Shown here: one piece after another, positions 18,326-59,126 of the stretch
How positions within the stretch are numbered: position 1 is the stretch's first letter
Layout of the letters: every line of letters starts with the position of its first letter
Assembly: GCF_016735595.1 (NCBI RefSeq)
Contig: NZ_JAERRB010000002.1
Span: 570,996-634,995 of the forward strand
Source: Chryseolinea lacunae
GTDB taxonomy: Bacteria > Bacteroidota > Bacteroidia > Cytophagales > Cyclobacteriaceae
DNA length: 64,000 nt
Reading direction: 5' to 3'
Made by a program: the position numbers and the translations under genes
Notes under the pieces: generated by a model
The model's input: only the letters and a program-made list of their open reading frames with translations
What the model was told of the DNA's origin: nothing
Database searches by the model: none

Positions 18326-18923
18326 TTGAGCGCTTGGAATGATAGGGAATATTTTCTTTTAGGTCATCGTGTATTTCATAGCCCCGCTCCCGGGCCGCGG
18401 GGGCCCCGCATGTTCCCATCAGGGCTATGCCCTACCCGCGCATGCCATGACCAGGCCAAAGGTAGGCCAAGGCCCTGATGGGAACATGCTGGAGGTGGTG
18501 CGGGTGTGTTGTGCGGGAGGTGTGTGAGTGGGCGCCTGAGTGTGATTCGTTTTCTTGTTTTTTTTCCTTCTTCTTTTTGTTCTTTCTTTCTTCTCTTTCT
18601 GACTTGCGGTGTTGAGCGAGTATTCGTTTTTCTTTTTTGGAGTGATAAATATTCAAAGAGGAAGAGATGATGCGACAAAAATTCAATACATGTCCAAATC
18701 GTCAATTCTTAATAACAGTGCATCACACTCAAGTCTCGCTCACACACTTCCTTCCAGCATGTCCCCTCTGAGGCCTAAGCGGACTTTGGCCTGGTCATGG
18801 CATGCGCGGGTACGGTTAAGCCTCAGAGGGGACATGCGGGGCCCCCGCGGCCCGGGAGCGGGGCTATGAAATGTGAGATGACCTATAAAAACAACTTATA
18901 CTATCATCCCAACCCTTCGACAA
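18326..18923. repeat. Inverted-repeat element, copy A
   Basis: About 598 bp between two convergent genes. Left and right arms are inverted copies of each other: AGGTCATC then ATTTCATAGCCCCGCTCC on the left (from 18361), the complement on the right (to 18884), with weaker pairing out to 18326 and 18923. Each arm contains a hairpin (18409-18488 and 18758-18836). The left stem is CATGTTCCCATCAGGGC with GCCCTGATGGGAACATG; the right stem is CATGTCCCCTCTGAGGC with its perfect complement. Both enclose the loop text CGCATGCCATGACCAGGCC. A GT-rich strip lies just inside each hairpin. The core is AT- and pyrimidine-rich with no credible gene. Copies B and C have the same plan. Confidence 0.85.
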
Positions 18924-19009
18924 CACCATTTCTAAAAACGTAAGGACAAAAAAATACCTCCGCATCATCTTTCGACAACACGAAGGCATAAGAAACTAAT
19001 CTTTAAAAA

Positions 19010-20758
19010 CTACTTCTTCGTTATCAACGCAAGCTCCTTCAATTGCTCATCCGAGATCGTTGAAGGTGTATCAATCATCACATCGCGGCCCGCGTTATTT
19101 TTCGGGAAGGCGATGAAGTCGCGGATAGAATCGGCGCCACCAAAAATAGAACAGAGGCGGTCGAAGCCAAAGGCGATGCCGCCGTGTGGAGGTGCGCCAA
19201 ACTCAAATGCTTCCATGAGGAAGCCAAACTGTTTCTTGGCTTCTTCTTCGCTGAAGCCTAAATGGCTGAACATCATTTGTTGCGTGGCGCGATCGTGTAT
19301 ACGAATCGATCCGCCGCCCACTTCTGTTCCGTTGATCACCATGTCGTAGGCATTTGCGCGCACATCGCCGGGGGCGGTGTCCAGCAGCTTGATGTCTTCC
19401 GGCTTGGGCGACGTGAACGGATGGTGCATGGCGTGATAACGCTTGGCTTCTTCGTTCCACTCGAGCAACGGGAAGTCCATTACCCAGAGTGCCGAAAATT
19501 TTTGCTTGTCGCGCAGGCCAAGTTTGTCGCCCATCAGCAAACGAAGTTCGTTCAGTTGTTTGCGGGTGGTGAACGTTTCGCCGGCCATGATCAGCAGGAG
19601 GTCGCCAGGCTTTGCGTTGAACTTTGCCGTCCATGCCCCCAGTTCTTCGGGCGTATAAAATTTATCGACCGACGACTTGATGGTGCCATCGGTTCTGTAT
19701 TGCACATACACCAATCCTTTAGCGCCCACCTGCGGGCGTTTCACAAATTCGGTGAGCTCGTCAATTTGTTTGCGTGTATATTCTGAACAGCCCGTGGCGT
19801 TGATGCCCACTACCAGTTCAGCACTTTCGAACACCGGGAAGTTTTTGCCTTTTGTGAGCTCCGTTATTTCTACGAACTCCATGCCGAAGCGTGTGTCGGG
19901 TTTGTCGGAACCATAGCGTTGCATAGCCTCGTCGTATTTCATCCGGGGCACAGACGGAAGTTCGATGCCTTTCACGTTCTTGAAGAGGTGACGCACCAGT
20001 CCTTCGAACATGTTGAGAATGTCTTCCTGTGTGATGAACGCCATCTCGCAGTCGATCTGTGTGAATTCCGGCTGGCGGTCGGCACGCAGATCTTCGTCGC
20101 GAAAACATTTCACAATTTGATAATAGCGGTCAAAGCCCGACACCATCAGCAATTGCTTGAAGGTTTGGGGCGACTGTGGCAAGGCATAGAACTCGCCGTG
20201 GTGAACGCGCGAGGGCACGACAAAGTCGCGGGCGCCTTCGGGTGTAGACTTGATGAGCACGGGTGTTTCCACCTCGATAAAGTTCTGGGCGTCGAGATAG
20301 GTGCGGGTCTGCTGTGCCATCTTGTGGCGCAGTTGCAAGCTTTCGCGCACGGGGTTACGACGCAAGTCGAGGTAGCGGTATTTCATGCGCAGCTCGTCGC
20401 CGCCGTCGGTGTCGTCTTCGATGGTGAAGGGGGGAAGTTTGGCGGCGTTCAGCACGGTGATGGCCGTCACTTTCAGTTCGATGTCGCCCGTAGCGATCTT
20501 GTCGTTTTTGGAAAGTCGCTCGGTCACAACACCTTCCACCTGCACCACAAACTCGCGTCCGAGGGTGCGTCCTTTGGCCACCAGTTCGGCGGGCGATTTT
20601 CCTTCTTCAAAGATCAATTGCGTGATACCATAGCGGTCGCGGAGGTCGATCCACAAAACACTGCCTTTGTCGCGGGTGCGCTGCACCCAGCCCGCCAGCG
20701 TAACGTGTTTATTTGCGTCTGATAACCTCAATTCGCCGCAAGTATGAGTCCGTAACAT
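19010..20758 (-). CDS. aspS: Aspartate--tRNA ligase
   Basis: 582 residues, the usual length of bacterial AspRS. An N-terminal OB-fold anticodon domain ([20 protein letters not shown]) is followed by the class II catalytic core with motif 1 ([20 protein letters not shown]), motif 2 ([18 protein letters not shown]) and motif 3 ([10 protein letters not shown]). The bacterial GAD insertion domain lies between them ([19 protein letters not shown]). It charges tRNA-Asp in the cytoplasm. It is transcribed towards copy A of the repeat element, and divergently from a small exported protein gene. Confidence 0.98.
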
Positions 20759-20814
20759 CTGAGTTTTAATTAATTTAGCCGCGAATTTAACAATACTTTG
20801 TGTCTGCGCCTTAT

Positions 20815-21405
20815 ATGCTAAAAATTAAAAGTGGTGTTCTCCTGCGGCTTTCCCTGGTAGTTTTTGTCGCTTTTGTCGCGGTGGCGGCCGTCAAGCCCAA
20901 GCTCATGAAAGTGAAGGTGAACGACGCCATCACGGTTTCTGTGCCCAACGAATGGCGCCCCATGGACGATATGGATTTCAACGAGCGTTATCCTTCCATA
21001 CGTGCCCCGTTGGCCGCCTACACCAACAACGAACGCGAGGTGGACTTCAGCGTGAACATCTCGGCCACCCAATGGCCCGATGCCGACCTGCCCCTGGCGC
21101 AAAAATTCTTCCGCGCGGGCGTCATGAACATGTTCGACCGGGTGGAGATGATCGAGGAAGGCATTCACGAGGTGGGCGGAAAGAAATTTATCTTCTTCGA
21201 GTTCGACTCGCGCATCAACGGCAGCAAAAAGCAAGAGGGCCTCAAAGACCCCGTAATGCGCTATACCTACATTCAATACCTGCTTTTGCCGGGACAAACC
21301 CTGGTATTCTCGTTCAACTGCCCCAAGCGCCTCAAAGCCGATTGGCAGGAAACGGCCCGGCTCATGATGACCAGCATCAAAATAAAGGCGGCCGCAAAAA
21401 AATAG
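20815..21405 (+). CDS. Uncharacterised exported protein
   Basis: 196 residues from ATG 20815; a GTG 15 bases upstream is in frame but would lengthen the signal unnaturally. A hydrophobic signal ([20 protein letters not shown]) precedes a globular alpha/beta region: [20 protein letters not shown], later [15 protein letters not shown] and [20 protein letters not shown], ending in a basic helix. The strand pattern recalls PsbP/DcrB-like folds, in which a small envelope protein senses or stabilises others, but I do not recognise the family with certainty. It lies between aspS (divergent) and tadA (same strand, 73 bp). Confidence 0.75.
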
Positions 21406-21440
21406 GCGCGTCTGGCCAAAGAAAGTGGAGGGTGCCGTGC

Positions 21441-21470
21441 TTGTCATTCTCCGCAGGGCGGTTAGTTTTG
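21441..21470 (+). promoter_or_regulatory. Consensus Bacteroidota promoter for tadA
   Basis: TTG at 21441-21443, exactly 19 nt, then TAGTTTTG at 21463-21470, an exact TAnnTTTG match. The tadA ATG at 21479 follows 8 bases later, implying a very short or leaderless mRNA, and rules out the upstream GTG at 21425 as the start. Confidence 0.7.
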
Positions 21471-21478
21471 TGGCGCCT

Positions 21479-21922
21479 ATGGAGCTGTATACCGACGAGT
21501 ACTTTATGCGCGAAGCGTTGAAGGAGGCCGACAAAGCCCTCGCCATCAGCGAAGTGCCCGTGGGCGCGGTGGTGGTGTGCAAGAACCGCATTATTGCGCG
21601 GGCCCACAACCAAACCGAGAAGCTCACCGACGCCACCGCCCACGCCGAAATGCTGGCTGTGACCGCCGCGGCAAACTACCTCGGTTCCAAGTATCTTAGC
21701 GAATGTACACTCTACGTCACGCTGGAACCGTGCGTGATGTGTGCCGGAGCCTTAGCCTGGGTGCAATTGCAGAAACTGGTCTATGGCGCATCTGATGTGC
21801 AGCGCGGCTTCAGCCTGGTGTCAACCCCGTTGCTGCATCCGCGCACCACAACGGTGAAAGGCATCAAAGCCGACGAGTGTAAAAAATTGATCGACACGTT
21901 CTTTGCCCGCATACGCAAGTAG
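21479..21922 (+). CDS. tadA: tRNA-specific adenosine deaminase
   Basis: 147 residues, typical for TadA. The zinc site is complete: TAHAEMLAV carries the zinc His and catalytic Glu, and PCVMCAG the two zinc Cys. The opening YMREALKEADKALAISEVPV variant (here FMREALKEAD, then VPVGAVVV) is diagnostic of the family. It converts A34 to inosine in tRNA-Arg(ACG). The ATG at 21479 is chosen over an upstream GTG because a consensus promoter lies directly before it. It is followed at 47 bp by the DUF3127 gene. Confidence 0.95.
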   Translation: MELYTDEYFMREALKEADKALAISEVPVGAVVVCKNRIIARAHNQTEKLTDATAHAEMLAVTAAANYLGSKYLSECTLYVTLEPCVMCAGALAWVQLQKLVYGASDVQRGFSLVSTPLLHPRTTTVKGIKADECKKLIDTFFARIRK

Positions 21923-21969
21923 GACCGGGGAGGACAGAAGAATTTATAAAAACAGAAAAACGACAAAAC

Positions 21970-22311
21970 ATGGAAGTAAAAGGAAGAGTAGTTCAATTGC
22001 TGCAAATGCAAACCGGCATGGGCAAAAAAGGCCCTTGGAAAAAACAGGAGTTCATCATGGAAACCCCGGGCCAGTATCCCAAGAAGATTTGTATGTCTAT
22101 CTGGGGCGACAAGGTGGACCAATTCAACCTGGCCGTAGGCGAACTGATCAGTGTTACCGTTGACCTTGAGAGCCGCGAATACAACGGCCGCTGGTACACC
22201 GAAGCCCGCGCCTGGAAGATCGAAAAGACCAGCGGAGGCAACACCCCGCCGCCATCGGACGAAGAACCTTTCATGGCACCTAACTCGGCCACCGACGATC
22301 TGCCGTTCTAG
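21970..22311 (+). CDS. DUF3127-family protein with SSB-like acidic tail
   Basis: 113 residues. Residues 1-85 match the DUF3127 family of Bacteroidota: MEVKGRVVQLLQMQTGMGKK, KKQEFIMETPGQYPKKICMS and WYTEARAWKIEK, a small beta-rich domain consistent with an OB fold. A Pro/Ser/Glu linker leads to the C-terminal DDLPF. That ending closely resembles the DDDIPF tip with which single-stranded-DNA-binding proteins recruit partners. The function is not established; a role in ssDNA handling is an inference from fold and tail. It lies close downstream of tadA on the same strand. Confidence 0.85.
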   Translation: MEVKGRVVQLLQMQTGMGKKGPWKKQEFIMETPGQYPKKICMSIWGDKVDQFNLAVGELISVTVDLESREYNGRWYTEARAWKIEKTSGGNTPPPSDEEPFMAPNSATDDLPF

Positions 22312-22420
22312 GACGCATTCTCAGAATCACAGTGCCGTCCCCGTAAAGGGGTACAGCACAAAGCAATAACCGTATATATAATCCTCGACGATTGAAATTT
22401 TCTTCGGCGGGTTTGGGTTG

Positions 22421-22428
22421 TATATTTG
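22421..22428 (+). promoter_or_regulatory. -7 promoter box upstream of superoxide dismutase
   Basis: TATATTTG matches TAnnTTTG exactly and lies 47 bp before the start codon. No well-spaced TTG is seen upstream, so the assignment rests on the -7 box alone. Confidence 0.4.
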
Positions 22429-22474
22429 ATATCGGAACAAAATAAATTGTTAAACCCTAAAAAAATTATTCATC

Positions 22475-23083
<609 letters not shown>

Positions 23084-23121
23084 AAGAGAGCTTCTTTTAA
23101 AACGAAGAAACAATAAATGGG

Positions 23122-23157
23122 AAATCCGTCGCTCCAATCGAGCGATGGATTTTTTTT
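23122..23157 (+). terminator. Intrinsic terminator after superoxide dismutase
   Basis: AAATCCGTCGCT pairs with AGCGATGGATTT (one G-T pair), followed by a T-run. Confidence 0.8.
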
Positions 23158-23181
23158 GTCGGGTGTTTTTATTCGACAGAC

Positions 23182-23810
23182 TTGTCTGAGCGTTTTGAGA
23201 GATAGGTTCTTTCTATGCGTCATTTTTTTTCGCGCATTTCATAGCTCCGCTCATGGCCGCGGGGGCCTCGCATGTTCCCATCTGGGCTTTATCCGATCCG
23301 CACATGCCATTACCAGGCCAAAGATAGGATAAGGCCCAGATGGCAACATGCTGGAAGGTGGGTGTGTAGTGCGGGAGGTGTGTGTCGGGAGTGTGGGTGT
23401 GAAAAAGTGGGAGAGATGGGAGTTGGTGTGCGTGGCAAGCGGGGTGGGCTTTTCTCTATGATATTGTTCATAGAATCAATAAAATCGTCACCTTGAAATT
23501 ATCAACACAAGGATTCAAAAGGTAATGCGACTTCATTAAACTGGATTAGCGAAATGACAGGATCCAGCAATCGTAGAATGATTTCACGGGGATGAAGAAC
23601 AAATCACGTTCATTCACTCTCACTCCCACACCATCCCCCCAGCATGTTCCCATCTGGGCCTTGGCCTACCTTTGGCCTGGTCATGGCATGCGCGGGTAGG
23701 GCATAGCCCAGATGGGAACATGCGAGGCCCCCGCGGCCATGAGCGGAGCTATGAAATGCGACAAGAAAATGACGCACAGAAAGAATCTATCTCACAAAAC
23801 GTTCAGACAA
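23182..23810. repeat. Inverted-repeat element, copy B
   Basis: About 629 bp, again in a gap between convergent genes, and the best preserved copy. The outer arms share TTGTCTGA, CGTTTTG, GAGATAG, TTCTTTCT and TGCGTCATTTT in inverted orientation, followed by CATTTCATAGCTCCGCTC and a GC-rich stretch ending GGGGGCCTCG. Hairpins lie at 23271-23350 and 23643-23722, with stem CATGTTCCCATCTGGGC and complement (one mismatch on the left, none on the right). The loop CGCATGCCATGACCAGGCC is intact on the right and has two changes on the left. The ~290-bp core has no gene and no similarity to the core of copy A that I can see. Confidence 0.88.
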
Positions 23811-23828
23811 ACAATCACAAGTCAACGC

Positions 23829-26002: not shown

Positions 26003-26030
26003 TGATAAGGTTGCTAAAAGGTTAACGTGC

Positions 26031-27044: not shown

Positions 27045-29327
<2,283 letters not shown>

Positions 29328-29383
29328 TTTGACTGGTTGATAGTGGATGAATACGGAGGAGGCAACAGGCTTCTCCAAAACTC

Positions 29384-29416
29384 AAAACCGCCGCAGGATC
29401 TGCGGCGGTTTTTTTT
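29384..29416 (+). terminator. Intrinsic terminator after the GH109-type gene
   Basis: AAAACCGCCGCA pairs with TGCGGCGGTTTT around a 5-nt loop, followed by T residues. Confidence 0.88.
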
Positions 29417-29476
29417 GTCTTGTTGACAACGCGCTTGAGTGTTGTGACTTTTTTCATTCCTTCGAATTAAAGAACT

Positions 29477-30217: not shown

Positions 30218-30233
30218 GGTGGTTCGTCTATAG

Positions 30234-30725
30234 CTATGCAGGGTTCAACCGCACCGGCACCCAGACTTCCTCTTCCGAATCCGGCTGATTATTCTTGTAC
30301 TTAATACCTAAAATTTCAAAATGTGCTCTCGCATCCAGCGCATACCCTGACCGCGGAAACCAGTCCGCATAGATAAAATGAAATGTCTTTTCAAAATCAC
30401 TGGCAGCGCCCTGGTGTAGAAAGACAGCGTATAGTCCCCCCGAAAGTGTCAATGTTTCCATCGCGTGAGGGATGTCATCAAAGTGCGTCACTTCAACCGC
30501 GGCCCATTTCGTGTGTTCGGTATCGGGTCCGAAGCCATGAATGCTAAAACCGGTGTCATACACCTGCACACAGAAAATGTCGCTCGACACCGTGTTGGCA
30601 ATCTCCTTGCGTCGCGGCATAAAGCCCTGAAAGAGCATCGCTGTTTTGTTGTTCGTCAAACTCATGCGGACACGCTGGCCAATAAGTTTTTTGGGTGGCA
30701 ACGTTTCGATGCGGGGTTCATTCAT
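30234..30725 (-). CDS. GyrI-like effector-binding domain protein
   Basis: 163 residues with no DNA-binding part. The opening RIETLPPKKLIGQRVRMSLT is the characteristic first strand of the GyrI-like/SOUL small-molecule-binding fold, followed by FQGFMPRRKEIANTV, WAAVEVTHFDDIPHAMETLT and a final strand block with FEKTFHFIYADWFPRSGYAL and FEILGIKY. Stand-alone GyrI-like proteins bind hydrophobic or cationic drugs, or in some cases hydrolyse them or inhibit gyrase. It is convergent with the membrane protein gene and divergent from the DinB-like gene. The ligand is unknown. Confidence 0.85.
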   Translation of the reverse strand: MNEPRIETLPPKKLIGQRVRMSLTNNKTAMLFQGFMPRRKEIANTVSSDIFCVQVYDTGFSIHGFGPDTEHTKWAAVEVTHFDDIPHAMETLTLSGGLYAVFLHQGAASDFEKTFHFIYADWFPRSGYALDARAHFEILGIKYKNNQPDSEEEVWVPVRLNPA

Positions 30726-34583: not shown

Positions 34584-34584
34584 A

Positions 34585-47973: not shown

Positions 47974-47999
47974 TTGTCCCACTAAAAACGTCTTCATTG

Positions 48000-50387
48000 T
48001 TACTCTGTGCGCAAGGCATCGGCCGGGTTGCTGAACGCCGCCTTGAGTGCCTGAAAGCTTATGGTGAGCAACGCAATGACAACCGATGCGGCACCGGCCA
48101 GCACAAAGATGCCCACACCGATGTGGATGCTATATTGAAAATCTTTCAACCACTGTGTCATCGCGGCATAGGCCACGCCGCTGGCCAGCACAAACGAAAT
48201 AAGGATGAGCACAATAAACTCAACCGACAGTTTGTAGAAGATGGTGGCGTTGCTGGCCCCAAGCACTTTGCGGATGCCGATTTCTTTTTTGCGTTGCTCT
48301 GCCGTGAAGGCCGACAAGGCAAACAAGCCCAACCCGGCAATCACCAGCGCGAGCACCGTGAAGTGCGTGAACATGTTGGCAAAGGCCTGCTCGTTGCGAT
48401 AGAGGTTGGCAAACTGTTCGTCGAGGAATGCATATTCATAGATAGTGCCCGGGTTAACTTTTTTCCAGGTCTGCTCCACAAAGGCCAGGGTAGCGGCTGC
48501 ATCGTCGGCTTTTATTTTGATGGCCATGGCGTTGTTGGTTTTGTTGTAGAGCATGAACATGGGCTCGAGTTTGTGGCGCACGGTGGCAAAGTGAAAATCC
48601 TTGACCACACCCACCACTGTGTAGGGCGTTTGATCGTTGACGGTGGCGCCCGTTTGCAGCGATATTTTTTTGCCCACGGCATCGTTCCATTTCAGCAGGC
48701 GCAGCATTTCTTCGTTCACGATCATGGAAAGCGAATCGTCGAAGTCGAGCGAAAAGTTTCTGCCGGCCGCCATCGTCATGTCCATGGTGGGAATAAAGTT
48801 TTCGTCGGCCACCATGATGCTGGCAATGATGTTGGTTTCGCTGGTGGACCCTTCGGGAAAGATGTTGGTGCGTCCCAGTTGCTGGCCGATGCGCGACGAT
48901 GAAGTTCCCACCGAAACCACATTTTGGTTTCGCATCAACTCTGTGCGAAGCGTCGTGGCCCGGGTCACTGCATCGCCGTTTTGTTGCATGGTGATGACCT
49001 GGTCGCGACTGTAGCCCAGGTCGGCATCATAGATGAAACGCATTTGCTGATACACAATGCCCGTGCCCACCATGAGCGCGATAGAAATCGTGAACTGCAA
49101 CACCACCAGGGCCTTGCGCAGGTGGATGCCTTTTGTTGAATTTTTGAACGAGCCCTTCAACACCAGGATCGGCTTGAACGACGACAACACAAACGCCGGA
49201 TACAACCCTGCAAGCAAGCCCACCACCAACACCAGCGTGCCGATAACGACAAGACTGAAGGGACGGAACAAAATGGCGGCATCGGCAAAACGTTGATAGG
49301 TGTTGTTCAACAACGGCACCGCCGCAAACACCACGGCAATGGCCAACAGGGCCGCCACGGCCGTGACCACAATCGACTCGGTGAGGTGCTGACCGATGAG
49401 TTGGTAGCGCACCGCGCCAATCACCTTGCGCATGCCCACTTCTTTGGCGCGACCCGCCGACTTGGCGGTGACGAGGTTCATAAAGTTTACGGCCGCCAAA
49501 ACGAGGATGAGCACGGCAATGGTAGAGAGCACGTATACATTCAGGATGTCGGATTTGTTGGCGTTGGTCTCGAACAGAATTTCTTTCGACTTAAGATGCA
49601 CATCGCTTAGCGGTTGAACGACGGGCGTAAAGAATTGATAGGCGTTGTTTTTCTTGGTGATGGCCTGCAGTTTGGCGTTGAGGTCGGGAACATTGGCGGG
49701 CTTGTCGAGCAGCAGATACGAGAAGGTGAAAATTCCCTGCCACGTTTGAAGTGCCTGTTGCAGACCGTCGTCGTTTTGGCCCGGCACCAGTGAGTGGAGC
49801 AAGTCGAATTGCAGGTGCGAATTTTTGGGAAGGTCGGCCATCACCGCCGTCACAAACAGGTCGGTGGTTTGAAAGAGTTTCACCGTTTTTCCAATAGCAT
49901 TTTCGTTGCCAAAGATTTTTTTGGCCAGGCTTTGGGTGATGACAATGGAGCCGGGTTTGTCGAGTGCACCTTTTGTTTGGCCTTCCACAATGTGGAAATC
50001 AAAGATGTCGAACACGCTGGGGTCTACGCGGAATGCGGCTTCACACTTCAGCATGTTGTCGCCATAGCGCAGGTCGTAGCGGCCGCCGCCGGTGAAGCGC
50101 ACGCTCTCCACCACCTCGGGCAACTCGTCTTTGGCGGTTGGTGCCAGCATCGGTTGGGTGACTCCCACATGCTTGCTGCTCACCCCTTCGGCGCTATCGA
50201 TGGTGAGGATGCGCACAATGCGGGCGTATTTATCGTGGAAGGTGTCGTAGGAAAGATCTTCTTCGATATAGAGATAGATCATCATGCTGGCGGCCAGGCC
50301 GAAGGTGAGGCCTAAAACCTTGATCAGGGAATAACCTTTTTGTTTCAGAAGGTTGCGTAGGCCGATGATGAAGTAGCTTTTGAACAT
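48000..50387 (-). CDS. MacB/FtsX-type ABC transporter permease (1)
   Basis: 795 residues with the duplicated permease layout: TM1 at about 20-42, a large periplasmic MacB_PCD domain (45-240), three TM helices with the FtsX motif RAKEVGMRKVIGAVRYQLIG (about 315-400), TM at ~430, a second periplasmic domain, then three TM helices with RKKEIGIRKVLGASNATIFY. Such mechanotransmission permeases work with a separate MacB-like ATPase in export or envelope signalling. No ATPase gene is next to it. It is one of three related permease genes within 9 kb. Confidence 0.93.
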   Translation of the reverse strand: MFKSYFIIGLRNLLKQKGYSLIKVLGLTFGLAASMMIYLYIEEDLSYDTFHDKYARIVRILTIDSAEGVSSKHVGVTQPMLAPTAKDELPEVVESVRFTGGGRYDLRYGDNMLKCEAAFRVDPSVFDIFDFHIVEGQTKGALDKPGSIVITQSLAKKIFGNENAIGKTVKLFQTTDLFVTAVMADLPKNSHLQFDLLHSLVPGQNDDGLQQALQTWQGIFTFSYLLLDKPANVPDLNAKLQAITKKNNAYQFFTPVVQPLSDVHLKSKEILFETNANKSDILNVYVLSTIAVLILVLAAVNFMNLVTAKSAGRAKEVGMRKVIGAVRYQLIGQHLTESIVVTAVAALLAIAVVFAAVPLLNNTYQRFADAAILFRPFSLVVIGTLVLVVGLLAGLYPAFVLSSFKPILVLKGSFKNSTKGIHLRKALVVLQFTISIALMVGTGIVYQQMRFIYDADLGYSRDQVITMQQNGDAVTRATTLRTELMRNQNVVSVGTSSSRIGQQLGRTNIFPEGSTSETNIIASIMVADENFIPTMDMTMAAGRNFSLDFDDSLSMIVNEEMLRLLKWNDAVGKKISLQTGATVNDQTPYTVVGVVKDFHFATVRHKLEPMFMLYNKTNNAMAIKIKADDAAATLAFVEQTWKKVNPGTIYEYAFLDEQFANLYRNEQAFANMFTHFTVLALVIAGLGLFALSAFTAEQRKKEIGIRKVLGASNATIFYKLSVEFIVLILISFVLASGVAYAAMTQWLKDFQYSIHIGVGIFVLAGAASVVIALLTISFQALKAAFSNPADALRTE

Positions 50388-50711
50388 ACGATTAGCGGAT
50401 TAGTTAGACCGTGTCAATTCAATTCCAATGCCATTGCTAAAACCTCGAATTCAGCGCTGAATGCGCGAACGTGTTCTTTCGGGGTGAGCGTTCGCGTGCA
50501 ATGTTGTCCGGCGGCGGTCGTAGAATGTTGCAACAGCGACCAAAATGATCGTGTCGCAGAGGAACAAATGTGATCGGAAGTGCGTAAATTGAAATACACA
50601 CCCAGACCGCGTTAGCCGGCAAGTAAAAATACATTTTCCCGCCGTGTTATTCATCGTCCTATCAGATGAGTAGTTTGTAGGTATTGGCTTGATACTGACA
50701 AAACTCAACAT
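50388..50711. other. Intergenic region with a hairpin, no gene seen
   Basis: 324 bp between divergent genes. Three overlapping minus-strand frames of 61-86 codons show no protein-like text. A hairpin with arms GCGCGAACG and CGTTCGCGT (50463-50497) is visible. Promoters for both genes should lie here; TAGTTTG at ~50667 is close to a -7 box but lacks one base. Confidence 0.4.
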
Positions 50712-51260
50712 ATGAAAGGTTTATCTGTACTGGTCACGATCATCATAGTGATGGCCATGGCCGCATGCGACACGCCCACCGTTCCGGAAGACGACAACAC
50801 TTCGGCCGTGGGTGAAGAAAACAAAGCAATCGTGGATAAATATATTCAAGCCAGTCTCACTGGCGACGTAGGCACCATGGAACAATTTATGGCCCCGAAC
50901 TTCAAAGACCACGGCCCCGTGAAAGGCGACACCACCAGCAGATCGCGCTACCTCGAGCGAACCCAAAAAAACTGGCAGGAAACCTTTGCCAGCATGAAAT
51001 ACAATCGCATCTCCGCCCTGGCCCACACCGAAGAAGCCGGTCCCCTCAAAGGCGACTGGGTGCTGGAGTGGGGCACGTTGGGCGTGACCTACAAAAACGG
51101 GCGCCCTCCGGTGTCGATAAAGATTCACGTCGTGTATAAAATCAAGGACGGGAAAATTGTTTATTCCTCGTCCTACTACAACGAAGCCGACGCCCTCAAA
51201 CAACAGGGCTATGCCTTTGTGCTGAAAGACGAACCCGTGAAAGAGAAAGTGATCGACTAG
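50712..51260 (+). CDS. SnoaL/NTF2-like lipoprotein
   Basis: 182 residues. Lipoprotein signal ending MAMAACDTP. The mature part has the cone-shaped NTF2 fold pattern: helix AIVDKYIQASLTGDVGTMEQ, FMAPNFKDHGP with the His often seen in SnoaL cyclases, helix RYLERTQKNWQETFASM, and strands GDWVLEWGTLGVTYKNG, IKIHVVYKIKDGKIVYSSSY. Members bind small hydrophobic ligands or catalyse ring reactions; many exported versions are uncharacterised. It is followed by a terminator. Confidence 0.85.
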   Translation: MKGLSVLVTIIIVMAMAACDTPTVPEDDNTSAVGEENKAIVDKYIQASLTGDVGTMEQFMAPNFKDHGPVKGDTTSRSRYLERTQKNWQETFASMKYNRISALAHTEEAGPLKGDWVLEWGTLGVTYKNGRPPVSIKIHVVYKIKDGKIVYSSSYYNEADALKQQGYAFVLKDEPVKEKVID

Positions 51261-51292
51261 TACACATCACGCGTTTGCGCGACATTTTTTTA

Positions 51293-51341
51293 ATGCGCCA
51301 TGAAGCCGCTGAACAACGGCTGTGCATGGCGTATTTTTTTT
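51293..51341 (+). terminator. Terminator after the SnoaL-like lipoprotein gene
   Basis: ATGCGCCATG and CATGGCGTAT arms with a further inner AGCCG/CGGCT pairing, followed by a T-run. Confidence 0.75.
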
Positions 51342-51436
51342 GCCCTTTGAAACTAAACCGGGCGTGTCCACATCGAAAGGGCGTGGTCTTTGCAGTATGC
51401 GGAATCGCCGTACCTTTGGCGCAAGGTCAACCCCAC

Positions 51437-52090
51437 ATGTCCGTCACCATGAATTGTATGTCGTCTGTTTTTTTTCGAAAAGTTTTTCTCTGTGTTTTGT
51501 TCTCCCTGGCGGGATGGATGGCCGTTGCCCAGGCCTACAAAGCCGAAGAATTCCAGGCCACAAAGCTGAAGGCGCGTTATGGTGCCATGATCGTATACAA
51601 CGGGCGCACCAATGCCTTTTCGTTTCGCATCGCGGCCGACTCTATCGGCACCCCCGAAAATCCGAACTTCCTGTGGGTGGATGGAAAACTGCTTCAGGCC
51701 ACCATCATTCCCTTCGTGCAAAAAGCAAACTATGCCGACCTTGATGAAGCGGAACAAAAACGTTTGTTGGAAGCCTACCGGAAATACGAACAATCGTATT
51801 TCGAAAAAGAACTGAACGCCAAGCTCAAAACCAAGGCGGAGTTTATCACCCTCAACCACAAAACCATGTTGTTGTGGACCATCGAAATGCCCAAAGACTC
51901 GGGCAACCTCTCCAAACAGTTTTTCATTTTCACCATCTGCTTCGACCAGATGCTCACCTTCAACATGCCAGTCGAAAAAGGCCAGGACGAAGTGGGCGTG
52001 AAAGACGTGCTGACGCGCACGGCCGAAAGCCTGGAACTGAGTTATGGGAAACTATACGATCTTAATAAATTATACTACGAACTGAAGTAG
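51437..52090 (+). CDS. Uncharacterised exported protein
   Basis: 217 residues from ATG 51437; ATGs at 51449 and 51458 are also possible, and the frame is open further upstream through the terminator, which cannot be coding. A signal peptide (VFLCVLFSLAGWMAVAQA) precedes a charged alpha/beta protein: KARYGAMIVYNGRTNAFSFR, then NPNFLWVDGKLLQATIIPFV and a long basic helix (KRLLEAYRKYEQSYFEKELN). It ends with ESLELSYGKLYDLNKLYYEL. I do not recognise the family. It is convergent with the second permease gene. Confidence 0.7.
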   Translation: MSVTMNCMSSVFFRKVFLCVLFSLAGWMAVAQAYKAEEFQATKLKARYGAMIVYNGRTNAFSFRIAADSIGTPENPNFLWVDGKLLQATIIPFVQKANYADLDEAEQKRLLEAYRKYEQSYFEKELNAKLKTKAEFITLNHKTMLLWTIEMPKDSGNLSKQFFIFTICFDQMLTFNMPVEKGQDEVGVKDVLTRTAESLELSYGKLYDLNKLYYELK

Positions 52091-52123
52091 TCTGCGAAGT
52101 TCTATCCCGCGTCAGCGGTTCCA

Positions 52124-54481
52124 TCATTCGCTGCGCAACGATTTCACCGGGTTGGCTTTGGCTGCTTTCACGGCCTGAAAGATCACCGTCACCAACGCGA
52201 GCAACAGCGTCAGCACACCCGAGCCTGCAATGATCCACCACGAAATGGAGATGCGGTAGTCATAGTCCGCCAGCCATTGATTCATGAACCACCATCCCAA
52301 TGGCGCGGCGAACACAAAGGCCAGCAGGATGAGGCGTGTGAAGTCGGTCGACAACAGCACCACCACATTCGAGATGGTGGCACCCAACACCTTTCGGATG
52401 CCGATTTCTTTGGTGCGCTGCTCGGCCGTGAACGCCGCCAGCCCAAACAATCCCAGACACGAAATGAGAATGGCCAACCCGGCAAACACATTGGCCAAAC
52501 GACCGATGCGCTGCATGTCGGTGAACTTGCGATTAAATTCGTCTTCGGTGAATTGGTAAAGGAATGGATAGGCCGGGTTATATTTTTTGAACACGCCTTC
52601 AATGCGCGTCATGGATTGCCCTATGGGTTGTGAAGCCGAGAGGCGCACCGTCACGTCCGTTACCCATCCCGGATCGTAGACCACGATGGTGGGATCTACG
52701 GGCCGATGCGGATAGGCCATTATCACGTCTTCGGTCACACCAACGACGGTGTAGGTGCGATCGCCTGTGGTGAGCTTTTCGCCAATGGGATTTTTGAAGC
52801 CGATATAGTCGCGCGCGGTTTCGTTGATGATGATGGAGAGCGAATCGTTTACGGTGGGAGAGAAGTCGCGCCCTTGCAACATTTTTACATGAAGCGTTTT
52901 TGTGTAGTCATAGTCCGTGCCCACCACGGCAAACGACTTGCGTTGGTCTTCAAATTTTCCGGGCCACACCACGTCTACAAAACCATAGATGGAGGTGATG
53001 GGGCTCGATGATTTTGTGACCGACTCGGCCGCACCGCTGGCGAGCAAATCACGCTTGATGGCGTCAAAGTTTTTCGGGATGTCACCATTGGCACCGATGG
53101 TGATGAGGCGGTCCACATCGTAGCCGGTGGGCCGGGTGCGCAGGTGGTTAAGCTGTTGATAGATGACCGCGGTAGAAATGATGAGCACAATGGAGAAAAA
53201 GAATTGCCCGATCACCATCACTTTGCGCGGGGTGCTTCCATCCTTTCCGGTTTGAAGTCTTCCCTTCAGCACAGCCGCCGGCCGGAAAGAAGAAAGATAA
53301 AGTGCGGGATAACTGCCCGACAGAAATGCCGTGAACACAATCACACCAAACGACGCCAGCCACAACCAGGGATTGCCATAGTCGATGAACAAGGTTTTGT
53401 CGACCAGTAAATTGTAGAAGGGCAAAAGACTTTCGGCCAATCCCAGCGCAATCACAAACGCCAGCAGGGTAATAAAAAACGTTTCGCCCAGAAACTGGAA
53501 GATCAGGTCCTTGCGTCGCGAGCCAACACTTTTGCGAATGCCCACTTCGCGTGCCCGCCGTTCCGAACGCGCCGTGGCAAGGTTCATGAAGTTGATGCAG
53601 GCAATCACCAGAATGAAAATGGCAATGATGGTGAACATGCGCACATACACAATGGTGCCCGTGGCGCTCTTGCCTTCTTTGAACTCGCCATACAAACGCC
53701 ACCGTTCCATGGGCAGAAACGTGACCTCGGCCGTGGTGTTTGCTTCGTGTTTTTTGATGATGCCCTTCACCCGGTCTTCGATGGCCTGCGGGTCGGCGCC
53801 TTCTGCGAACTCCACATACATGTTGAACGAACTGTTGCCCCACTCGCTCAGTGCCGTCTTTGTCCAGGGTTCGCGAATCATGTAGGTCGAGAAGGGCAGG
53901 AGGCAGTCGAAAACAAACGTGGAATTGTTGGGAACATCTTTGATCACACCCGACACCTTCAGGTCCACGCGATCGTCTACACGCACCACCTTGCCCAGCG
54001 CCGGTTCGTTGCCAAACAGGGCGCGTGCCGTGCTCTCGGTAATCACTAGGGTGGAGGGATCGGTCAGTTGAGGGGCGGGCGGTCCTTGCACCACGGGAAA
54101 CGAAAACATGGTCAGAAAATCTTCGGCCACGTAGTAGCCGTGTTTATAGAATTTTTTATCACCAACGGTCAGCAGGTAGTCGCGGCCCCAGTCGGTAGGC
54201 ACCACGTGCGCGATGTCGCGTTCTTCTTTAAGGCCTTCCCACAAGCCGAGGGGAACGGCGCGTTGGGTTTGGATGCCCTGGTCGCCCAGTGCATTGATGT
54301 GCACGCGATAGAGCCGGTTTTTCTTTTCATGAAAGTTATCCCACGACCGCTCGTCGGCCACCCACAACAAAATGAAAATGGTGCAGACCATGCCGATGGA
54401 AAGGCCCGCGATGTTGATGAAGGAGTAGACTCCGTTTTTGAGGAGGCTTCTCAAAGCGATCACAAAATAACTTCGGAACAT
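52124..54481 (-). CDS. MacB/FtsX-type ABC transporter permease (2)
   Basis: 785 residues, same architecture as the neighbour at 48000: opening SYFVIALRSLLKNGVYSFIN, periplasmic MacB_PCD domain, TM block with RAREVGIRKSVGSRRKDLIF, a second periplasmic domain and a last TM block with RTKEIGIRKVLGATISNVVV, ending AAKANPVKSLRSE. The recurring ending (ANPVKSLRxE) is common to this permease family in Bacteroidota. No ATP-binding partner adjacent. Its stop faces the small exported protein gene; upstream, at 16 bp, ends the third permease gene on the same strand, so 2 and 3 are an operon. Confidence 0.93.
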   Translation of the reverse strand: MFRSYFVIALRSLLKNGVYSFINIAGLSIGMVCTIFILLWVADERSWDNFHEKKNRLYRVHINALGDQGIQTQRAVPLGLWEGLKEERDIAHVVPTDWGRDYLLTVGDKKFYKHGYYVAEDFLTMFSFPVVQGPPAPQLTDPSTLVITESTARALFGNEPALGKVVRVDDRVDLKVSGVIKDVPNNSTFVFDCLLPFSTYMIREPWTKTALSEWGNSSFNMYVEFAEGADPQAIEDRVKGIIKKHEANTTAEVTFLPMERWRLYGEFKEGKSATGTIVYVRMFTIIAIFILVIACINFMNLATARSERRAREVGIRKSVGSRRKDLIFQFLGETFFITLLAFVIALGLAESLLPFYNLLVDKTLFIDYGNPWLWLASFGVIVFTAFLSGSYPALYLSSFRPAAVLKGRLQTGKDGSTPRKVMVIGQFFFSIVLIISTAVIYQQLNHLRTRPTGYDVDRLITIGANGDIPKNFDAIKRDLLASGAAESVTKSSSPITSIYGFVDVVWPGKFEDQRKSFAVVGTDYDYTKTLHVKMLQGRDFSPTVNDSLSIIINETARDYIGFKNPIGEKLTTGDRTYTVVGVTEDVIMAYPHRPVDPTIVVYDPGWVTDVTVRLSASQPIGQSMTRIEGVFKKYNPAYPFLYQFTEDEFNRKFTDMQRIGRLANVFAGLAILISCLGLFGLAAFTAEQRTKEIGIRKVLGATISNVVVLLSTDFTRLILLAFVFAAPLGWWFMNQWLADYDYRISISWWIIAGSGVLTLLLALVTVIFQAVKAAKANPVKSLRSE

Positions 54482-54497
54482 AAGAGGTTCGTTTTTT

Positions 54498-56924
54498 TTA
54501 TTCGTTTCGAAGAGCCTTCACCGGGTTGGCCACGGCGGCGCGCACCGATTCAAAGCTCACCGTAGCTAACGCGACAAACAACGCCGCAAGCCCGCTGTAG
54601 ATAAAGATCGTGAAATCTATGGGCGCCTTATATTCAAAACCTTTCAGCCACTGCGACATGGCATACCACGCTATGGGCACGGCAATCACAAACGCGATGA
54701 CCACCAGCTTCACAAACTCTTTCGACATCAACGTCACAATCTGGCTCACGTCGGCACCAAGCACCTTGCGCACACCAATTTCCTTGAAGCGACGCTCGGC
54801 CATAAAGGTTGACAAACCATAGAGTCCCAGACACGAAATGAGCATGGCCAACGCCGTGAAGCTTGTGATGATGGACGCCACCTTGCGATCTTCTTCATAG
54901 TTCTTGCGGATGGAATCGTCGAGAAACGTATACTCAAACGGCGTGTCGCTGTTGGTGCTCTTCCAGATCTTTTCGACGGAGGCAATCACATCTTTGAAAT
55001 GGGCCGCGTCTACTTTCAGAATCACAAAGTCGTAGGAGCGGTCTTCTGGTGCCATGCGAAAGAGGAGCGGCCGGATTTTTTCTTTAAGCGAACTCTGGTG
55101 ATAGTCTTCCATCACCCCAACAATGTGGAACGTGGATTTTTCTCCCTGCCATTCCGTGAACACGTCCTGCCCCACGGCTTTGTCCGGATCGAACCCGATC
55201 GCTTTGGCACCGGTGCGGTTGATGATGATGTTGCCGTTGCTTTCGGTTGCGCGGTGTTCGCTGAACGAGCGGCCGGCCACCATTTTAATGCCCAGCAATT
55301 CCAGGTAGCCATGACTCACATAGTTGTTCAAATGATCGACTGCCTTTTCCATGTTGGCGCCTTGCGGATAGATGGAGAAGTCAGACCAGATTTGTGACCC
55401 GGGCAAATAGTCGGTGGCCGCCACACTTTGCACATGGGCTGCGCGACGAAGTTCGTTTTGAAGCGCGTCGGCATTTTTCGACGCCGAGGCTGTGCGTAAC
55501 GGCAGCACAATTTTGGCGTCGGCGTTGAAGCCAAGATTTTTGTTTTCGATATAACGCAGCTGACTGCCGATGATGAGCATGCCACACACCAGCGCGATGC
55601 CGATCATGAACTGAAACACCACCAGCGACTGCCGCAGCAGGCCCGAGCCACCGCTCAACGAAATCTTGCCCTTCAACACTTGCGCCGGCTGAAACGACGA
55701 AAGGTAGAACGCCGGATAACTTCCGGCCACAAGACCCGTCACCAGCGTGAGGCCCACCAGCGAAGCGATCATATACCACACGTTGTCCGTGCCAAGTGTG
55801 ATGCTTTTTCCCGTGAGGTTGTTAAAGAACGGCAGCGCCAGTTGCACCAGCACAAGGCTGAGCAAAATAGAGATAAGCACAATTACCATGGCCTCGCCAA
55901 GAATCTGTCCGATAAGCGAACTGCGGAATGCCCCCATGGCTTTGCGCAACCCAATCTCGCCCGCGCGCTTTGTGGCCTTCGCTGTGGACAGGTTCATGAA
56001 GTTGATGCAGGCGATGAGCAGAATGAACACCGCGATCGATGCAATGATATAGATATAGATAATGCGCGGACTCTTACCCACCTCCGACCGCAAGTAAATA
56101 TCTTTCACCGGTTCGATCGACAACGTTTTGAACAGGCCAAGCGCTTTCATGTCTTCGGCTCCGTGCTTCACCAGCACTTCGTTCATTTTTTTCTCCACCG
56201 CCTTCACGTCATGTCCGGGGGTGAGTCTCAAATAGGAGGGCACAAAGTTTTGTCCGGCCCACTCGTCCTGGGCATCCGGCGAGCGCATATATTCGGCCCA
56301 GCCCGAACTGGTCATGGAGATGAAGAAGTGCGGCATCACGTGGCTCTTGTGCGAATCGTCGAACACGCCCGTGATTTTGAAATCGCCCGCAGGTCCGCCA
56401 AGGCTCACGCTGATCATCTTGTTGAGCGCCTCGCTTGAGCCAAACAGTTTGTGGGCCATGGTTTTTGAAATCACCACGCTGTTGGCATCGGTGAGTGCTT
56501 TCGCGGGATTGCCTTCGAGCAACGAATAGGCGAGCACATCAAAAAGGGTGGAGTCGGCCAGGTAGCCGTCGCTTTCATAGAAGATGTTGTCTTCGTAGCG
56601 GATCAGGCTTTGGGTAGCACCGGGCGGATTGAGCAGGCGCGTGGCCGACACCACTTCCGGAATCTCGTCGCGCAACGCCATGGCAATGGGCGGAGAGGCC
56701 GTGCCCGATTCGTCAATGCCCATGTCGCCCTGAAAGTGTGTGACGATGCGATACAGGTTGTCGCGGTCGGCAAGGTGCGTATCTACCTTAAATTCGTCTT
56801 CGATATAGAAAGCCAAAAGCAGACAGCACGCCACCCCAAGCGAAAGACCAAAAATGTTGATGAACGAATAGGCCTTGTTCCGACTGATGTTGCGTAGTGC
56901 GATCTTGATATAGTTCCTGAGCAT
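54498..56924 (-). CDS. MacB/FtsX-type ABC transporter permease (3)
   Basis: 808 residues from ATG 56924 (opening LRNYIKIALRNISRNKAYSF), chosen because all relatives begin with this amphipathic stretch; an upstream in-frame start would add 23 residues. Two FtsX blocks are seen: RAGEIGLRKAMGAFRSSLIG and RFKEIGVRKVLGADVSQIVT. It ends VANPVKALRNE. First gene of an operon with permease 2 (16 bp apart). With permease 1 this makes three paralogues that are well diverged from each other, so they probably serve different substrates or signals. Confidence 0.93.
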   Translation of the reverse strand: MLRNYIKIALRNISRNKAYSFINIFGLSLGVACCLLLAFYIEDEFKVDTHLADRDNLYRIVTHFQGDMGIDESGTASPPIAMALRDEIPEVVSATRLLNPPGATQSLIRYEDNIFYESDGYLADSTLFDVLAYSLLEGNPAKALTDANSVVISKTMAHKLFGSSEALNKMISVSLGGPAGDFKITGVFDDSHKSHVMPHFFISMTSSGWAEYMRSPDAQDEWAGQNFVPSYLRLTPGHDVKAVEKKMNEVLVKHGAEDMKALGLFKTLSIEPVKDIYLRSEVGKSPRIIYIYIIASIAVFILLIACINFMNLSTAKATKRAGEIGLRKAMGAFRSSLIGQILGEAMVIVLISILLSLVLVQLALPFFNNLTGKSITLGTDNVWYMIASLVGLTLVTGLVAGSYPAFYLSSFQPAQVLKGKISLSGGSGLLRQSLVVFQFMIGIALVCGMLIIGSQLRYIENKNLGFNADAKIVLPLRTASASKNADALQNELRRAAHVQSVAATDYLPGSQIWSDFSIYPQGANMEKAVDHLNNYVSHGYLELLGIKMVAGRSFSEHRATESNGNIIINRTGAKAIGFDPDKAVGQDVFTEWQGEKSTFHIVGVMEDYHQSSLKEKIRPLLFRMAPEDRSYDFVILKVDAAHFKDVIASVEKIWKSTNSDTPFEYTFLDDSIRKNYEEDRKVASIITSFTALAMLISCLGLYGLSTFMAERRFKEIGVRKVLGADVSQIVTLMSKEFVKLVVIAFVIAVPIAWYAMSQWLKGFEYKAPIDFTIFIYSGLAALFVALATVSFESVRAAVANPVKALRNE

Positions 56925-57064
56925 GATGCGGTTAGTTTTTGCGAGATACCGGGCACGTTCCAAGATCAGTGCCAGTCCGCCATATCGCCCCACAGGGGCT
57001 GCAATGCTGCAATTTTCATTTTATTCACGATCAATACCGAACGCAGGTGTCCGCATCCGGCCGC

Positions 57065-57442
57065 TCAGGAAAGCCGTCGCTGGGTGACCCACCACTGGTT
57101 TCCGAAGGGATCGGCAAAGCCGGCGCTGCGGCCATATTCGCGGTCGCCCGGTTCCTGCAGCGAGGTGCCGCCGTGGGCCAGGCCTTTTGCATAGAGGTCG
57201 TCGGCCGATTCCACCATAACAAACATGCCTGCGGGAAATGGTGGGTAGGTGTCGGTGGCTTCTGTGAACATAACCACCGCTTTGCCGATGCTGAACTCGG
57301 CGTGCATCACGGTGCCGTCGTCGCGCTTGCCGGCATATTGTTCCGTGGCGTTGAACACATTTTTAAGAAAAGTGATGAACCTGGCGGTGTCTTTAATGAC
57401 CAGGTAGGGCATGATGGGCAAATAGTAGTCCGGTGTTTTCAT
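57065..57442 (-). CDS. VOC-family (glyoxalase/bleomycin-resistance-like) protein
   Basis: 125 residues from ATG 57442; the upstream start would add 22 residues lacking similarity. The two beta-alpha-beta-beta-beta modules are clear: MPYLVIKDTARFITFLKNVF and MHAEFSIGKAVVMFTEATD in the first, GMFVMVESADDLYAKGLAHG and SAGFADPFGNQWWVTQR in the second. The family, close to PhnB-like members, binds a metal or an antibiotic; the actual ligand is unknown. It lies ~100 bp downstream of the AraC-type gene on the same strand and may be its target. Confidence 0.9.
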   Translation of the reverse strand: MKTPDYYLPIMPYLVIKDTARFITFLKNVFNATEQYAGKRDDGTVMHAEFSIGKAVVMFTEATDTYPPFPAGMFVMVESADDLYAKGLAHGGTSLQEPGDREYGRSAGFADPFGNQWWVTQRRLS

Positions 57443-57543
57443 AAAGATGATACTGGTGTTTAATGAAACTGCGGGCAACGATGTGTTGCTCGTTACGCGA
57501 AGTAACATCAGAGGGTGCTATCAGAAATTGTAAAAATGCGACA

Positions 57544-58353
57544 TCAGGCATCGCGGTATTCCACGCCCTCTGCCTTTCCCGAAAAATAATAGCCCGGATG
57601 ATAGCCCGAAAACTCCCGAAACTCATGGATGAAATGCGACTGATCGAAATACCCGCACCCATAGGCAATCTCCGTGAGCGATTTCTCACGATTGCCATAT
57701 TCTTCGAGCGACGATTGAAACCGCACAATGCGCGAAAACAATTTCGGACTAAAGCCCGCATGCACTTTAAATTTCCGTTCGAACTGGCGCCGCGATAAAA
57801 AATTGTCGTGGGCCAACGCGTCGATGTTAACCGCACCGTTGGCATGAATCACACGCTGAATGGTGAACGCCACAGCATCCTCGGCCTGATAGTGCCGGAT
57901 GAGTTTACGTTCCAGAAACGACGTCAGCAACGCCCTGCGTGAAGCATGACACGGTGCCAACGCCATTTGTTCTTCAAGGTCAACACCTTCCTGCCCCAGC
58001 AGCGTGTGCAGGTCGGGCATCTCGTTGGTGAGCTCCTCTGCCGGATAGGCAAACAACTGGGGAATGGCATACGGATAGAGGTAGGCACCAAAGATGCCAA
58101 AGCCTTCGCAGGTCACAAACCGGTTGTAGCGTTTGGTCTGCGCATGCAATCCTGAGACAAAAGACTTTTCTGTTTTTCCATCTTCCAGTAACTCATCGAA
58201 CCTTCCCCGAAAGTGGAATACAAGTTCCGGGCATCCGGAGGCCATGGTGCGGTGCACGTAAGGCGTTGCACAGGATGCTTCTCCTTCCAGCGCCCAGAAG
58301 CAGCGCACAAAGGGTGCGAGTGATGGGGGTGGCATGAAGGTGTGGTAAGGCAT
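57544..58353 (-). CDS. AraC-family regulator (DUF6597-type N-terminus)
   Basis: 269 residues. The N-terminal sensing part (PSLAPFVRCFWALEG, then CPELVFHFRGRFDEL, GIFGAYLYPYAIPQLF) is typical of AraC proteins with the DUF6597-like domain. The C-terminal DNA-binding part reads IDALAHDNFLSRRQFERKFK and SLTEIAYGCGYFDQSHFIHE, ending FSGYHPGYYFS. Copy C of the inverted-repeat element begins ~70 bp before its start codon, so the element may affect its promoter. The nearest target is the VOC gene downstream. Confidence 0.93.
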   Translation of the reverse strand: MPYHTFMPPPSLAPFVRCFWALEGEASCATPYVHRTMASGCPELVFHFRGRFDELLEDGKTEKSFVSGLHAQTKRYNRFVTCEGFGIFGAYLYPYAIPQLFAYPAEELTNEMPDLHTLLGQEGVDLEEQMALAPCHASRRALLTSFLERKLIRHYQAEDAVAFTIQRVIHANGAVNIDALAHDNFLSRRQFERKFKVHAGFSPKLFSRIVRFQSSLEEYGNREKSLTEIAYGCGYFDQSHFIHEFREFSGYHPGYYFSGKAEGVEYRDA

Positions 58354-58423
58354 TGGAAATGATTTTTTGTAGAGGTAAGATACGTTGAAAGGGGAGAAAA
58401 GTGAACCCTGTATGAGCGTTCGC

Positions 58424-59126
58424 GCTGAGTGTTTTGTGGGATAGGTTGTTTTTTCTTTGGTGAGTTTTCGTGCATTCCATAGCTCCGCTCATGGCCGCGG
58501 AGGCCTCGCATGTTCCCATCAGGGCTAGATCCGATCCGCGCATGCCACTGCCAGGCCAAAGACCGTATCAGGCCGTGATAGGAACATGCTGGAAGGGGTG
58601 AAGGGATGGTGCCGTGGATAGGTGAGTGAATACAATTACCCTCACCAGGGCAATTTTCTGGCTCCATCAGGAGCCCACTAAGAACGATGAAATGCTGTGT
58701 GACAATGACGCACACACTGTCGTCAAAAATGTAAATGACCACCAGTCCGTATTGCTGCAAAGACAATGTTGTGAAATGCACGCACGAATTTTTTGCTAAA
58801 ATACTTCACAGAGATGATCAACAGATCCCAACCACCAAAGGCACATCAAAAATACATTCAGCAAAAAAGAACGCGTAGACAGCAGAACCCATCAAAAAGA
58901 AACCCACATCGCCACACATTAGACACTGCCCGCCTCACACCACACACCCACACCCCGTTCCAGCATGTTGCCATCTGGGCCTTGGCCTACCTTTGGCCTG
59001 GCATGGGCACGTGCGGGTAGGGCATAGTCAAGATGGGAACATGCGAGGCCCCGCGGCCATGAGCGGAGCTATGAAATGCACAAAAACAAAAAAAGAAAAC
59101 CATAACTATCTCACAACACGCTCAGC
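58424..59126. repeat. Inverted-repeat element, copy C
   Basis: About 703 bp, the most diverged copy, between the AraC-type gene start and the kup stop (tandem genes, unlike A and B). Outer arms share GCTGAG, TTGTG, GATAG and a T-rich tract, then GTGCATT-CATAGCTCCGCTC and GGCCGCG in inverted orientation. Hairpins lie at 58509-58588 and 58964-59043; their stems have two to three mismatches (left: CATGTTCCCATCAGGGC against GCCGTGATAGGAACATG). The loop keeps CGCATGCCA-TGCCAGGCC on the left. The core of ~375 bp contains no credible gene. Confidence 0.82.

Follow-up and report, generated by a model that had tools for sequence, protein, structure and literature searches.

Bacterial miniature inverted-repeat transposable elements (MITEs) and fold-back elements are gene-less and carry long inverted arms. 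Integron attC sites lie after genes, conserve structure more than stem sequence, and have a variable terminal structure. Repeats of the REP (repetitive extragenic palindrome), BIME and REPIN kinds are hairpins scattered between genes, either alone or in inverted dimers, and frequently at the 3' ends of genes (PMC3733652, PMC6006769). Here we describe a repeat in Chryseolinea lacunae, a member of the Cytophagales, that came to attention through three elements, A, B and C, in a 64,000-nt stretch of contig NZ_JAERRB010000002.1 (positions 570,996 to 634,995 of the forward strand; hereafter the window). Its repeating unit is a single ~200-nt arm with two hairpins, HP1 and HP2, that is multi-copy in the 7.9 Mb genome (G000; other G numbers denote relatives, and L numbers loci) and patchily distributed among relatives.

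The closest described kinds are REP/BIME repeats and MITEs. Like the former, the units are dispersed, stand solo or in inverted pairs, and seldom lie between divergent genes (9 of 86); however, a REP is a 20–40 bp palindrome with a GTAG or CGTC foot, whereas the unit is ~200 nt long, has two hairpins and a conserved internal loop, and has no such foot that could be seen by eye in the aligned arms. The likeness to MITEs and fold-back elements lies in the absence of genes, the inverted arms of pairs, empty sites in relatives, and mini-palindromes consistent with internal loss. The units differ in that solo arms are the commonest arrangement, in that conservation falls on an internal structured module and not on a terminal repeat, and in that the unit core has changed less than the sequence beside it at three shared sites. 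As in attC sites, structure is kept over stem sequence, tip length varies, and the units lie after genes, but they are dispersed instead of forming one array, their conserved positions are others, and no integron integrase scored above the cut-off in 14 genomes. RNA families in Rfam share the covarying hairpin with a conserved loop, yet none matches a unit at gathering score in the window or at six other loci: Rfam 15 returned nothing in the window, and the two matches at the other loci (tRNA and DUF805b) both lie off the units. At E up to 5, four loci gave six weak sub-gathering matches, none of which was accepted. The original prediction knew of no described family with this plan; that is upheld for Rfam 15 and for the open-access literature as searched, within which the family appears undescribed.

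Anatomy, copy number and distribution of the unit

The original prediction placed inverted-repeat elements at 18326-18923, 23182-23810 and 58424-59126 of the window, and rereading the sequence finds all three as first described. Each is an inverted, tail-to-tail pair of one ~200-nt unit (Table 1). An ungapped repeat search of the window recovers the arms as direct families of three copies each (132 nt and 93 nt) and also in inverted pairs: 143 nt at 87% complementarity in B, 108 nt at 85% in A, and in C two stretches, 97 nt at 75% and 56 nt at 80%. From outside to inside, an arm consists of a leader (CTGAACGTTTTGTGAGATAG or a near-match, a variable stretch, then CATTTCATAGC), the small GC hairpin HP1, the ~80-nt hairpin HP2 (GCATG...CATGC, followed by TGG), and a GT-rich tail. 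The cores between the tails are unlike one another, and the claim that they hold no credible gene stands, because those open reading frames (ORFs) of at least 80 aa in the ORF list that touch the cores continue through the arms. When folded as single strands of DNA, four of the six arm cores, those of A and B, beat dinucleotide shuffles, with z from -2.9 to -4.2.

Table 1. Arms and cores of elements A, B and C (window positions). Arm limits are from an nhmmer profile of the six window arms; limits and bit scores of the R2 cores are from model R2.
Feature	Position	Strand	Basis
Element A left arm (leader, HP1, HP2 ~18408-18489, GT-rich tail)	18322..18528	+	nhmmer; R2 core 18370-18495, 113.8 bits; sequence
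Element A core between tails, no credible gene	18529..18720	.	ORF list; sequence
Element A right arm, inverted unit	18721..18923	-	nhmmer; R2 core 18751-18875, 94 bits
Element B left arm (HP2 ~23270-23351)	23183..23382	+	nhmmer; R2 core 23233-23357, 101 bits; sequence
Element B core, no credible gene	23383..23616	.	ORF list
Element B right arm, inverted unit	23617..23811	-	nhmmer; R2 core 23636-23760, 103 bits
Element C left arm	58419..58613	+	nhmmer; R2 core 58471-58595, 101.4 bits; sequence
Element C core, no credible gene	58614..58929	.	ORF list
Element C right arm, inverted unit	58930..59130	-	nhmmer; R2 core 58957-59080, 100.2 bits

The view of a family of three 600–700 bp elements proved too narrow, the repeating unit being one arm that often stands solo. 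Searching G000 with element A gave 57 matches (40 of 46 candidates were scored), and a profile search of the fetched places found at least 27 arms with both HP1 and HP2 at no fewer than 20 sites, both counts being lower bounds. These sites comprise seven pairs (A, B, C, L010, L015, L016 and L019), all of them close and tail-to-tail, and 13 solo arms, including one (L024) in which HP1 and HP2 are present and the leader is missing. Solo arms average 135.8 bits, against 136.7 bits for paired arms. The core of the L019 pair contains a 234-aa ORF, for which no Pfam family scored above cut-off. Partial or mini copies are also found in G000 (L026, L027, L028, and a partial match at C4:142090). Other arrangements occur in relatives: direct pairs (L042, L050, L054); three head-to-head composites of two subtypes in G004, one of them truncated, as judged by eye; two units 192 nt apart at L060 of G005, where Tandem Repeats Finder reports no array; and, in one stretch of Chryseosolibacter indicus, a tandem array for which the same program gives a period of 224 and 2.6 copies.

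Several further features were seen at these loci. The leaders in the C. indicus array (L137/L141, contig 42, ~7-9 kb) resemble the start region of a neighboring SusC-like gene, and its tails are of a heptamer type (ATTAGGC-like). At L109, L110 and L111 of G004, a second repeat, GAGCCAAATGCGGG...GCATATTTGGCTC, together with a hairpin, TTTCTTTTTGT..ACAAAAAGAAA, precedes the units of one subtype. In the window itself, paralogous putative FtsX/MacB-like permease genes (named by resemblance) at 48002-56036 account for three-copy direct repeats of 57–100 nt.

Comparison of arms supports the proposal of a structured RNA or DNA family. Alignment A1 holds 53 arms from five genomes of the genus; A2, which was fitted to the structure, draws on 48 loci in G004, G005 and other genera and has 53 distinct rows of model matches, of which three are partial; the rows of L056-L060 are common to both. 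In A1, 96.3% of pairs are standard, and 15 of the 29 HP2 pairs have changes on both sides, amounting to 139 cells as against 10–20 with slid partners. The corresponding figures in the structure-fitted A2 are 25 of 29 pairs and 313 cells, as against 18–61. Because changes on the two sides of the stem match, the folded shape is maintained. Paired changes could also come from mutational repair of imperfect palindromes, which would leave the conservation of the loop unexplained: the HP2 internal loop, CCGCAC / CCAAAG, is mostly kept while stem letters vary widely among lineages. The HP2 tip is of variable length and may carry inserted small hairpins, and the outer arms vary among lineages while the hairpin module is conserved. 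Small palindromes (CCTGCCTGCC..GGCAGGCAGG, CCCGATAG..CTATCGGG and others) were noticed by eye within HP1 or HP2, mostly in loops, at L107, L126, L123, L121, L140 and L111.

In structured RNAs, G-U pairs are more numerous than A-C mismatches. The ratio of G-U to A-C cells is 16:22 in A1 and 25:43 in A2, the latter from 57 of 60 rows (50 distinct, some also in A1) after the last three, partial matches were dropped; within A1 it is 0:13 for G000 and 16:9 for the remaining rows. In contrast to what tRNAs show, wobble pairs are not commoner than A-C mismatches, so there is no consistent one-strand tolerance of wobble, and the counts fit a DNA hairpin or a hairpin required in transcripts of both strands. 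A one-strand RNA is accordingly less favored than DNA or a hairpin of both strands.

The objection that the elements might be absent elsewhere is answered by the copies in G000 and by units in relatives. Of 390 genomes sampled from the order, 10 have units according to covariance model R1 at E <=0.001, though one of these, G248 (27.5 bits), was rejected as unlike a unit when inspected by eye. The other nine represent six genera in three families, and all except G301 have several copies. When 395 genomes sampled across the phylum were searched with a second model, four gave matches: G000, G059, G046 from another family of the order, and G787 from another order of the class, whose match agrees in HP1 and an outer stem and differs in the internal loop. 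Bearers include Chryseolinea serpens DSM 24574, Chryseosolibacter histidini PWU4, C. indicus PWU20, a Chryseolinea metagenome-assembled genome, and Flammeovirgaceae UBA2366; the genus-mate G003 has no match. Neither did plasmids and phages match one 125-nt core (B left) at E 1e-5, nor viral contigs one exact degenerate pattern. About 70 nt from the unit at L121 (G152), positions 1-80 hold a sequence that we take to resemble the 3' end of a group II intron.

Mobility and conservation of fixed copies

The suggestion that the elements are MITE-like, gene-less and mobile is supported by their multi-copy dispersal, by empty sites in relatives, and by the likeness, on average, of outer arms within pairs. 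In G001 and G002 the region of element A is collinear, yet the corresponding intergenic site lacks the element. Element C is missing from both together with an adjoining putative AraC-family-like gene (window 57510-59180; named by resemblance), element B lies at a synteny break, and G002 lacks arm L052a of G001. For the 23 site stretches of G000, no flank is shared with any of the 14 loci fetched from G001 and G002, whereas four loci of G001 have flanks in common with loci of G002; the G002 places that match L051, L053 and L054 by synteny, a guess, gave no flank matches in the fetched stretches. At two shared loci an arm in one species corresponds to a mini-palindrome, made of outer arms, in the other; a third retains just the first ~55 nt in one of the species. 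All of this is consistent with decay of arms or pairs. In the seven pairs, the outer variable segments have a mean likeness of 0.556 versus 0.414 in random pairings, of which 2 in 5000 were as high. HP2 is not more alike within pairs (372 of 5000 random pairings as high), and hairpins may therefore be exchanged between elements. Terminal inverted repeats are present in the mini-palindromes and in pairs A, B, C, L015 and, weakly, L016. Elsewhere, 3 of 46 units tested (L124, L125, L146) are ringed by inverted repeats that none of 60 shuffles equaled.

Some fixed copies are also better conserved than the sequence around them. At three orthologous sites common to G001 and G002, 350 of 363 aligned core letters are identical (96%), compared with 248/379 far upstream, 128/180 in the leader, 139/166 in the tail and 335/425 downstream (65–84%), gap columns being left out. 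Flanks at shared loci are 88–94% identical, with one at 68%. We read this as probable constraint on some fixed copies, with caution as to ascertainment, since shared sites were found through intact arms and decayed cores are under-counted. For gene context, 86 units counted with paired arms apart (10 of 96 were dropped for an uncalled neighbor) fall into 33 convergent, 44 co-directional and 9 divergent positions, as raw ratios from heuristic gene calls without a genome baseline. In a second set, of units from other genera and further units of G004 and G005, the downstream neighbor points toward the unit in 31 of the 38 with both neighbors called; one strand is therefore usually downstream of a gene.

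The explanation that we favor, at about even confidence, is a structure-recognized, non-autonomous mobile repeat of REP- or MITE-like character that is moved in trans and some of whose fixed copies have become 3'-end structures. The basic unit would be the ~200-nt arm, with the conserved module of HP1 and HP2 as its cargo. A trans-acting enzyme that recognizes the hairpin would spread units to sites between genes, frequently at the 3' ends of genes, either one at a time or as inverted pairs joined tail to tail. The unit may act through folded DNA, as a single-stranded hairpin or a cruciform, or through transcripts from both strands. Some fixed copies would then be kept by selection and plausibly serve the host, for example as two-way 3'-end structures.

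A number of observations weigh against this explanation. No linked transposase was found among the ORFs of the fetched stretches, where the genes that recur beside units all belong to common families. Exact ends and target duplications cannot be read at the empty sites, because the flanks are too diverged for any junction to be placed to the base, and no clear right-hand terminal repeat is seen in the 13 solo G000 arms or in pairs L010 and L019. Likeness of outer segments within pairs is uneven, from 0.35 to 0.82, with L016 under the between-pair mean of 0.41. Several arms border variable gene islands (L042/L073, L050/L074, L052/L158), where recombination instead of transposition might have placed them. 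With respect to structure, the two arm cores of C show no folding advantage over shuffles (z -1.3 and -0.3; 22/200 and 85/200 as good), the number of pair types in A1 is matched by 86 of 500 shuffles, and the tRNA control for the wobble counts (19:0 in 235 pairs of 11 tRNAs from the fetched loci) is a favorable one because ARAGORN seeks paired stems. Conservation of fixed copies is likewise not uniform. A fourth orthologous site, G334/G059 in another genus, lacks the contrast (core 98/103, flanks 132/147 and 143/150; pooled over the four sites, the core is identical at 448 of 466), and at three further shared loci (L055/L045, L073/L042, L050/L074) the core is lost in one species.

The islands themselves, L052 2600-8200 versus L158 4450-11640, and L042 2800-13000 versus L073, have arms at their edges and differ almost completely between the two species. 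The sequence adjoining them is ~81–89% identical.

Alternative explanations

The alternatives differ in what they ask of the hairpin. In a multi-copy structured RNA, such as a 3'-untranslated-region element or a small RNA, the hairpins would work in the transcript, and the covariation in both alignments, the conserved core at three shared sites and the usual position of one strand downstream of a gene all suit it. The absence of a wobble preference, in counts whose sign varies by subset, speaks against it, as do the occurrence of both orientations relative to genes and the lack of a relevant Rfam match; no promoter or terminator was noticed, though no promoter scan was made. Because hairpins needed in the transcripts of both strands would also erase a wobble bias, the argument leaves room for a two-strand RNA, and we regard the structured RNA as a tentative and rather unlikely explanation. 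An ordinary MITE of a known DDE insertion sequence would instead have its long terminal inverted repeats cut by a transposase encoded elsewhere, with passive hairpins. The tail-to-tail pairs with partly matching outer arms, the mini-palindromes of outer arms alone (L027, L055, L073) and the inverted repeats around L124, L125 and L146 all point that way, but across lineages it is the hairpin module that is conserved and the outer arms that differ, solo arms make up 13 of 20 sites and score like paired arms, and L145, a second copy in the genome of L146, has no such inverted repeat. This explanation is improbable. Doubtful, and falling between these two in our estimate, is a self-spreading DNA-structure site, whose extruded hairpin and conserved loop would be recognized by a host or mobile-element protein; it would mark gene 3' ends and island borders, direct insertion or recombination there, stand outside both the RAYT/REP systems and the integrons, and be under selection at fixed sites.

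Two known enzymes were sought as mobilizers. In a REPtron, the gene for TnpA_REP (RAYT, a Y1 HUH transposase) is flanked by its repeats, and the habits described in PMC3733652 (dispersed hairpins, inverted dimers, gene 3' ends) are shared by the units; PMC6006769 describes atypical structures for the Bacteroidetes subclass 2.6. However, in 13 unit-bearing genomes none of 43 Y1 matches lies within 5 kb of a listed unit, a count in which only 19 of the 43 share a contig with one and draft contig ends could hide some; the nearest are at 5.6 kb in G269 and 10 kb in G000. Y1 matches also occur in 17 of the 21 searched genomes without detected units, the single G000 match (L029, C12:638448-641693) adjoins a different hairpin, and the ~200-nt length of the units is unlike that of REPs. 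Units as the REPs of a RAYT are thus largely refuted and very unlikely. Least likely of all, by a little, are integron-like attC-type sites that move gene cassettes. The long imperfect hairpin with its variable tip, the gene-arm-gene-arm order in L042 and L050, and the arms at island edges would fit such sites; the dispersal of the units and the placement of their conserved letters in an internal loop would not, and the integrase model TIGR02249 reached its cut-off in none of 14 genomes (best single piece 154.5 bits versus 265), although other tyrosine recombinases are present in them. A recurrent neighboring gene was considered as mobilizer and rejected: in the fetched stretches the largest cluster consists of spurious ORFs through arms, and those after it are widespread families, for example FtsX-like permeases and SusC-like receptors.

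Beside the Y1 (RAYT-like) match at L029, a very long near-perfect hairpin (CTGGCGCGAGTTTGCAACTCGTGCC...) precedes the match at ~1290-1400. It is unlike the units and perhaps belongs to a separate REP family.

Significance of the family

The units are dispersed, patchy among relatives and preserved in folded shape, and for these reasons we consider them a probable small mobile structural element and not noise. They constitute an apparently new structured repeat family, defined by a covariance model and not by sequence identity, that extends over several genera of the Cytophagales and possibly beyond. As a mobile-looking repeat of which some copies are better conserved than their surroundings, and in which wobble pairs are not preferred, the family makes it possible to test whether such a unit acts as DNA or as RNA and which protein recognizes it.

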